From the NCBI GenBank assembly GCA_022564935.1, contig JADFKM010000077.1, positions 1 through 6,841 of the forward strand: a DNA stretch of 6,841 nt, given 5' to 3'. Below, piece after piece: positions 52 to 6,841 of the stretch. This stretch comes from Candidatus Dadabacteria bacterium (GTDB taxonomy: Bacteria; Desulfobacterota_D; UBA1144; Nemesobacterales; JADFKM01). The notes beneath the pieces are model-generated. The model was not told where the DNA came from and ran no database searches. It saw nothing but the letters and a program-made list of their open reading frames with translations. Position numbers and translations under genes: made by a program. The stretch's first letter is position 1. Every line of letters begins with the position of its first letter.

Positions 52-404
52 CTCGTTTGCTCCCGCGCCGCCCCCGGCTCCGCCTCGACCCGGACTCTTA
101 CCGCCACCTATGCCAGCAGGTGCTGGAGCGCGATGGCTGGCGCTGCCAATCCTGCGGCCGCTCTACCGACCTCCAGGTCCACCACATCCACCCTCGGGGT
201 CAGCTGGGAGCCGATGCCGAACAAAACCTCATCACCCTCCCTCACGGGCTTTGTAAGCTCTATGAGCATTATGTGAGTGCCGTAGGGTTTAAGCTCAACA
301 GAAGCCCCTGCGGGAACGGCAATTGTGTCCAACTTCTTCATCTTCGCCACTCCCTTATCGTCAACCTCGGAGGTGTGCAATTCGGCGAACTTCGAGACGC
401 TTGA
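48..404 (+). CDS. HNH endonuclease, 3' end lost at a junction near base 239
   Basis: Residues about 18-64 match the HNH/McrA nuclease fold. A helix rich in L, E and R leads into the zinc-knuckle pair CQSC (Cys33 and Cys36), the catalytic VHHIHPRG block (His45, His46), and Asn60 in the context EQNLITL. Family members continue directly with a second C-x-x-C-H knuckle, which is absent: after Leu64 (base 239) the reading frame runs antisense through the copper chaperone gene to a chance stop at 404. Genuine coding is therefore about 48-239 and the product would lack its last metal ligands, so a functional nuclease from this copy is unlikely. The GTG start overlaps the upstream stop (GTGA), with a GAGAAAGG-like ribosome site just before it. 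HNH proteins of this short type serve many roles, including standalone nucleases near mobile elements and restriction genes; the role here is unknown. Confidence 0.6.
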   Translation: MTRLLPRRPRLRLDPDSYRHLCQQVLERDGWRCQSCGRSTDLQVHHIHPRGQLGADAEQNLITLPHGLCKLYEHYVSAVGFKLNRSPCGNGNCVQLLHLRHSLIVNLGGVQFGELRDA

Positions 405-3845: not shown

Positions 3846-4259
3846 ATGAAAAACAAACTAACCGCGGCGCTTGTTATTTTCATAATCGCCCTCGCAGCCT
3901 TCATCATCTATCCACTCCTAAGCCAAGGGAAAATAGTAATCAAATTCGACAGGGCGCCCGGAGTTGTAGAAGGCTCCAAGCTCCTCTACAAGGGGACCGG
4001 CATCGGCGTGGTATCGAAAGTAAATACCGACGATAAAAACAGAACCCTAGCCTATGCAGCCATTCACAAAGACTACCGTGAGACGGTCAATTCCAGCGCT
4101 GCCTTCATAGTCGAGGGCCCGGAGTACAAAAGCGAGAGCAAAACTGTAAGGAACATCACAGTGGAAGTGCTCGATCCCAACGCACCTCCCCTTAAAAACG
4201 GGCAAATTGTTGAAGGCTACTCCTCCAGGTTGGACTTCATGTACCGCTCCGGCAAGTAG
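3846..4259 (+). CDS. Small stand-alone MCE (MlaD-like) domain protein
   Basis: The protein has 137 residues. Residues about 5-26 form one hydrophobic N-terminal helix (LTAALVIFIIALAAFII), a membrane anchor with the rest in the periplasm. The remainder reads as one MCE/MlaD domain: IVIKFDRAPGVVEGSKL and YKGTGIGVVSKV (the F..A.G...G..V.Y.G...G.V pattern), then a strand ending in IHKDYRETVNSSAAFIVEG, and ITVEVLDPNAPPLKNGQIVEG. MCE proteins form hexameric rings that move lipids between membranes, usually with an MlaE-type permease and MlaF-type ATPase; neither is in this window. The domain is followed by almost no C-terminal region, shorter than E. coli MlaD (183 residues). After the TAG stop the same frame stays open for 28 more codons (see the next entry). 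The ribosome site is weak. Confidence in the fold is moderate, because the match is from memory of the pattern. Confidence 0.72.
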   Translation: MKNKLTAALVIFIIALAAFIIYPLLSQGKIVIKFDRAPGVVEGSKLLYKGTGIGVVSKVNTDDKNRTLAYAAIHKDYRETVNSSAAFIVEGPEYKSESKTVRNITVEVLDPNAPPLKNGQIVEGYSSRLDFMYRSGK

Positions 4260-5019: not shown

Positions 5020-6320
5020 GCGCTATGGATGGTCATAAATTGACGGCGGTACTCGACGTTACCACTCAAATAGATGAGAGCGCAAGAGGAGCCACGCTGA
5101 GATTACTCCGAGCGCAGCGCCTCGTAGAGACGCTTTACCATATGCAGCTCGCCGAGGAGTACACGGTGCAGCTTGAAAACGTACTGTTCGGAAAGATAAT
5201 AGACGAGCTGCGGGAAGCCGCGGTCGCTTTACCCCCAGAAGACAGGCCGTCGTTCCAAAAGCAGATAGAAGAGATAAAAGAGGGCATCTATGACCTATAC
5301 GCCGTAGCGCTGAGCTTGGGCGGGGAGGAGCACATTAACTACGTTTTCGGCAAGATCATCTCAGCCGAGCGGGGCAACCGCCCTTTATGGGGAGGGGCAT
5401 TGGGGAGGGTTAACACAAATCACGACGAGCTAATTCGCCGCTACGACTCGGGAGTGGACAGCGTCATTGAAAAACTGCCCCTGCCCGAGGGTTACAAATG
5501 CTCAGGCGTGGCCGATAAAGCCCCGGAGATAAAGCTACTGGATGTCTTCTCCTTTGCCGGAGCGCTAAATATAAGCCACAAACCCATATGCGTATTTTTT
5601 TCCGGAGGAGATAGGGAGAACCTGTCCACCCTTTCCAAGATGGTCGTTTTTATAAACATTTACACACAGCGCTTCAACATCATATCGAGGGAAATAGCCC
5701 GCAAGCATTTTACCGATTTTTATCCTCTCAATGATATCGATAACGAAAGCATAGCGAAGATACTGCTTATGTGGCTGAGAGGACACGACCTGGGACACTT
5801 CTACGGCGTCGACAACCTCGCCGACAACATGGGGGAGCTCAGCCGGAGCTACCTCATACTACATGAATTCAAATCCGATATGATCGCCCTGTATAACTTG
5901 AAGCACTTAGGCCCGGAGCTCATTGGTAAAGAAACGCTTATTAACGCTTACTACGTAACGCTTGCGGAAATGCTCAGATACATAAGGAGAGGAAATATCT
6001 ATATCCACCCCGATTCGGCATCCGCATACCTTGCTTACAGATATTTCCTCGGAAGCGCCTCGATCACGCTCGACACAAAGATAAATAAGTTCGGATTCAA
6101 CATCGAGAAGCTGGAGTCAGACATCGAAGAGCTCGCAGTGGAACTGCTCACGACCTTTTCCGAGGGCAACGCTGGAAGGGCTGAGGACTCGGTGAACAGA
6201 TACGGGGATTTATCCAGGCTGAGCGCTTCGTCACCTCCCCCAAGATTGGAGTTTCTATACGACACCGACATCCCATACTATCTTGAGCTCAAATCAAATC
6301 TTACTCTTGATGTTCAGTGA
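5016..6320 (+). CDS. Divergent M49 (dipeptidyl peptidase III-like) zincin-type protein with an HDLGH motif
   Basis: The product is 434 residues, soluble, with no signal or membrane helix. The frame is open further upstream, but ATG at 5016 overlaps the previous stop (ATGA) and has AAGGA six bases before it, so it is the start. Residues about 20-120 are helical and acidic. The likely metal site is RGHDLGHFYG (His257, Asp258, His261), followed 22 residues later by HEFKSDMIALYNL (Glu284, Asp288). This resembles the M49 pair HExxGH and EExRAE/D followed by an ALY-like segment. The C-terminal part (NKFGFNIEKLESDIEELAVELL, GNAGRAEDSVNRYGDL, then DTDIPYYLE) also has the M49-like pattern of a helical repeat and a final IP-x-x motif. 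Known DPP III enzymes are 550-740 residues, so this is a reduced form, and the general-base Glu is Asp. An HD-domain hydrolase is an alternative reading of HDLGH, but no upstream His ligand is evident. Function unproven. Confidence 0.6.
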   Translation: MSAMDGHKLTAVLDVTTQIDESARGATLRLLRAQRLVETLYHMQLAEEYTVQLENVLFGKIIDELREAAVALPPEDRPSFQKQIEEIKEGIYDLYAVALSLGGEEHINYVFGKIISAERGNRPLWGGALGRVNTNHDELIRRYDSGVDSVIEKLPLPEGYKCSGVADKAPEIKLLDVFSFAGALNISHKPICVFFSGGDRENLSTLSKMVVFINIYTQRFNIISREIARKHFTDFYPLNDIDNESIAKILLMWLRGHDLGHFYGVDNLADNMGELSRSYLILHEFKSDMIALYNLKHLGPELIGKETLINAYYVTLAEMLRYIRRGNIYIHPDSASAYLAYRYFLGSASITLDTKINKFGFNIEKLESDIEELAVELLTTFSEGNAGRAEDSVNRYGDLSRLSASSPPPRLEFLYDTDIPYYLELKSNLTLDVQ

Positions 6321-6377: not shown

Positions 6378-6426
6378 CCGTACAAACAGGTTGTGACATA
6401 CTCACTCACATCCGAGCCGACTATTT

Positions 6427-6841
6427 TTATCGCCAGTTCTTTTTGTGTTGAGCTGCCGCAAGCCACCTGTACTCATCGAGGAACTTTCCATGACTCGGCC
6501 CCATGGTCTCCCTGCCGTAAACGGCAATGTAGCCATCAAGGGGCTTGCCTTGCTGTGAGACAGCCTGTTCATTGATATCAATTTCCCCCCCCGGTGTTTT
6601 GTGCGGCAAGCTCGATCAACTCTCTCTGCTCGACCTTTATGTTGAACAAAAATGGGTTCGGGTCGCCTTGTGCTTCGGGTTTTCCTTTCTTGCCGTATTG
6701 ATCCCATCCTGATAACCTCTGAAGTATTGGTACAATGCAGCTCAGTTCAACGGATGTGCACAGACAACAGCCACCCGATTGAGAATTGGGGTTAAACTCT
6801 CTGAAAACCGCAGCAATGCAATACCCCCGTATACAATATAT
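6427..6841 (-). pseudogene. Unrecognised coding region broken by a +1 frameshift at a G8 run (partial at right edge)
   Basis: From base 6841 downward one minus-strand frame is open for 87 codons. It carries coherent protein sequence such as RLSGWDQYGKKGKPE, GDPNPFLFNIKVEQREL and IELAAQNTGG, then hits TGA at 6580-6578 right after a run of eight G (6592-6585). Removing one G joins it in frame to EIDINEQAVSQQGKPLDGY, AVYGRETMGPSHGKF and LDEYRWLAAAQ, ending at TAA 6429-6427. Both halves read as one hydrophilic, soluble protein. No start codon occurs in the first frame inside the window, so the gene begins beyond the edge or the outermost cysteine-rich part (about 6720-6841) is not coding. I recognise no family. 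The shift may be a sequencing or assembly error, a real mutation, or a phase-variable switch. The gene converges on the HDLGH protein gene. Confidence 0.6.

Follow-up and report, generated by a model that had tools for sequence, protein, structure and literature searches.

The window, the whole stretch of 6,841 bases that was analysed, is an entire contig (contig 23, C23, of the draft genome G000), base 1 of the window being base 1 of the contig; the genome comprises 104 contigs (1.99 Mb, 88.6% complete). We found that its left end carries parts of genes on both strands. On the plus strand, the tail of an open frame (1-51, ending in PPPQQKQFLEQLRKAS with a stop codon at 49-51) is cut by the contig end, with only its last 16 codons present, and overlaps at base 48 the GTG start codon of the 5' part of an HNH endonuclease gene (48-239; PF01844, E = 9.9e-7). 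On the minus strand, a SCO1/SenC gene (619-1242; PF02630, E = 2.1e-47), the usual partner of the PCu(A)C copper chaperone, directly precedes a chaperone gene (225-617; PF04314, E = 7.6e-33) that lacks its C-terminal ~20-30 residues and whose frame runs on as a spurious extension (108-224). The HNH and chaperone genes, both cut mid-domain, meet tail to tail in a junction zone at 225-239, which reads NLITL on the plus strand and EGDEV on the minus strand, the breakpoint lying inside or adjoining it.

The chaperone match had been placed by the first-pass annotation as stopping at about base 225, after the EGDEV block, and our searches agreed, with similarity covering positions 1-95 of the 109 in the PF04314 profile and then being lost altogether. 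With 18 relatives combined into a profile, scores climbed through the V of EGDEV (from 149.3 to 153.1 bits) and then halted; the part expected beyond the EGDxV block was absent, and the 38 residues found there, which are the HNH gene read antisense, scored -2.0 bits. Six full-length relatives, which were among the 18 and thus helped to build the profile, scored 201-236 bits, compared with 153 here. The copper-site core was intact, with the conserved His and Met (ELHTSEVDDKGVAKM and GTHIML) aligned with those of the relatives. Among the 40 genomes searched, 30, counting this one, had a PCu(A)C match, and ten, some of them incomplete, had no detectable copy. In every other genome with a match, the best one fell within a frame 148-172 aa long; the normal C-terminus that the first-pass annotation had proposed looking for was present in all 18 aligned relatives. 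In addition, no second chaperone copy or separate C-terminal fragment was found elsewhere in the window's own genome, and none of 19 neighbouring loci in relatives had an HNH motif beside the chaperone, the shared arrangement that the first-pass annotation had held would speak against a chimera.

Further along the contig, a plus-strand gene (5028-6320) encodes a 430-residue protein; of the 57 genomes of the phylum that were searched, 20 besides this one encode a homologue (34-46% identity), and both this protein and the chaperone have homologues throughout the order. Because of the former homologues, most of the contig seems to belong to this genome. The 430-residue protein had no Pfam or NCBIfam match; its RGHDLGHF and LHEFKSD stretches hint at a metal-dependent enzyme, and it may be regarded as a candidate uncharacterised family. 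A very short MlaD/MCE-domain protein (3846-4259, plus strand; 137 aa; PF02470, E = 3e-6) was also predicted. At the opposite contig end, overlapping minus-strand frames (6402-6841) may be what is left of a gene in decay, or this end of the contig may be of poor quality as well; a Pfam search of 6405-6707 on that strand gave no match.

The host side fits the phylum, whereas the HNH side does not, the best matches found for it being phage genes at 49-52% identity. As the first-pass annotation had read it, the HNH match stops at base 239, just before the second CxxCH: residues 48-79 of the frame align with positions 1-36 of the 47 in PF01844, including the first CxxC and the HH core, and the match ends with NLITL. 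The second CxxCH is absent from the fragment, the sequence diverging straight after NLITL, whereas complete relatives go on with NLVTLCSDCHDAVH or NLVAICHECHEEVH, i.e., CxxCH. Only two of the 57 genomes searched in the phylum had an HNH match, this window included, and the other match was a different, longer protein (E = 4e-8, 55% identity over 40 aa). Phage sequences matched over more of the fragment than that protein did, the best relatives found being genes on IMG/VR contigs (L051-L053; L051, 52% identity over 56 residues) and gp49 of Tunturiibacter phage Tunturi_4 (49% identity over 55 residues). Matches from plasmid and phage collections reached 43-50% only. When IMG/VR was searched with the HNH sequence as it stands in the window, one short match was returned, and when the query was completed to the family pattern, 18 loci were returned. 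The host of Tunturi_4, Tunturiibacter, is an acidobacterium. From these phage matches we infer that the donor may have been rich in GC, perhaps an acidobacterium or a phage infecting one.

The first-pass annotation had further proposed that the 15 bases at 225-239 satisfy both families at once and constitute a microhomology. Both frames stay open through the join. The double fit is real, but it is less of a surprise than it first seems. In the observed phase, the minus-strand codons are the complements of the NLITL codons one for one, and what can be encoded opposite L, T, I, L and N is limited to [E/K/Q/stop], [G/S/R/C], [D/N/Y], [E/K/Q/stop] and [V/I], respectively. The resulting pattern, [EKQ][GSRC][DNY][EKQ][VI], is similar to the K-x-G-D-x-V block that PCu(A)C proteins carry. 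We enumerated the 864 possible codings of NLITL, attached each of the 384 stop-free antisense readings to the chaperone and scored it; the mean was 152.0 bits, compared with 150.3 for random 15-mers and 153.1 for the observed sequence. At least as good a fit to the chaperone profile as the observed one was given by 46 of the 384 readings (12%) and by none of 2,000 random sequences. The apparent microhomology is therefore partly forced and far less than a 4^-15 coincidence, since the two conserved motifs are nearly complementary at the codon level. The same near-complementarity may explain how two unrelated genes shared enough bases to be joined. The junction 15-mer occurs once in its own genome, with no copy elsewhere.

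The fall in GC content counted by hand in the first-pass annotation, from about 66% to about 55%, was reproduced by computation (66.2% for 1-240 vs 54.6% for 241-480). The first 239 bases have 66.1% GC, a value matched by three of 2,127 sampled 239-base windows of the same genome, for which the sample mean was 51%. An order-3 Markov score failed to set the piece apart (z = +1.2), and for this reason composition is only moderate evidence, which backs a foreign origin but is no proof of it. What tells most about the junction is that the window is a complete contig, and the foreign piece is therefore only ~239 bases, stopping at the contig end. Its terminal position and its length of about one read or insert are features by which a chimeric contig is recognised. 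Elsewhere in this draft, contig 1 (L030, 2264 bases) consists of N at every base.

Taken together, the start of the contig is very probably a chimeric end produced in sequencing or assembly and not the outcome of a genuine rearrangement in the organism. It has the look of a chimera because both genes are broken, the foreign side is about as long as a read or short insert, and that side ends the contig. Both truncations, the contig-end position, the host-type genes on one side only and the intact orthologues in relatives were observed directly. As for the chimeric step itself, we infer that part of an HNH gene from elsewhere, perhaps an acidobacterium or a phage, would have been fused to the host PCu(A)C gene, whether as a chimeric molecule in the library or via a false overlap in assembly. 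The join would have fallen at a short stretch that the two genes happen to have in common, and the assembler, unable to go further, would have stopped ~239 bases past it. The smallest k-mer overlap of common short-read assemblers exceeds 15 bases; unless the two sequences have more than this in common, a library chimera is to be preferred to a join made by the assembler. Of the two origins offered by the first-pass annotation, the false joining of two genomes is the one supported, in view of the short terminal piece, the double mid-domain cut, the intact, HNH-free chaperone loci of relatives and the occurrence of the best HNH relatives found in phages and other organisms.

The other origin, natural short-homology recombination, was not borne out, its positive support being limited to the short shared stretch; nor was the idea that a nuclease operon had been brought into the copper operon, as all that can be seen is a 192-base piece of the HNH gene and 16 codons of another open frame. 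A real illegitimate recombination at the microhomology, putting foreign DNA into the PCu(A)C gene and destroying its C-terminus, is unlikely. It would account for the short stretch common to both genes at the join, HNH genes of this kind do occur in phages, and loss of the chaperone could be tolerated, given the ten genomes without a detectable copy. However, both genes are truncated and not the target alone, the foreign DNA amounts to only ~239 bases that end the contig, and no relative examined has such a junction. Natural insertions normally disrupt the target and carry cargo with a boundary of their own; double mid-domain breakage is better explained by random joining of fragments than by insertion. 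A slightly more doubtful version is that a phage-type HNH gene was truly joined into PCu(A)C by microhomology, eased by the resemblance of the NLITL antisense to the K-x-G-D-x-V codons. That the convergent HNH and chaperone genes form a native, functional antisense overlap with altered C-termini is most improbable, for although the open frames through the junction would allow it, the HNH protein would have no second CxxCH and the chaperone no C-terminal part, the residues added to the chaperone have no counterpart in its family, and the arrangement was seen in no relative examined.

With a chimeric contig end as the preferred reading, the first ~240 bases of the contig should be treated as suspect and carry a quality warning. 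This genome should not be counted as having the HNH gene, nor should its chaperone be recorded as shortened or missing.

The order and orientation of the SCO1 and PCu(A)C genes are the same as in two related genomes, with SCO1 directly before the chaperone also at the loci L009 and L013, but the chaperone in the window, unlike those, is without its C-terminus. Similarly, the HNH fragment shares its N-terminal layout with the phage-type small HNH endonuclease gp49 of Tunturi_4 but breaks off before the second CxxCH. With respect to the join, chimeric reads in human libraries have been proposed to arise during preparation when partial single strands become joined where they are complementary (PMC10908179). 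In such reads, as would be the case at the junction in the window, molecules are linked through a short complementary sequence, but they involve inverted repeats and palindromes within the human genome, whereas the window would join two different genomes. Chimeric contigs in metagenome-assembled genomes bring together two lineages, as the window probably does, with an abrupt change in gene content and GC of the kind seen here. GUNC (PMC8201837) aims to detect such contig chimerism in assembled genomes; unlike chimeras of that type, the foreign piece in the window amounts to about one partial gene, which is probably less than gene counts would pick up.
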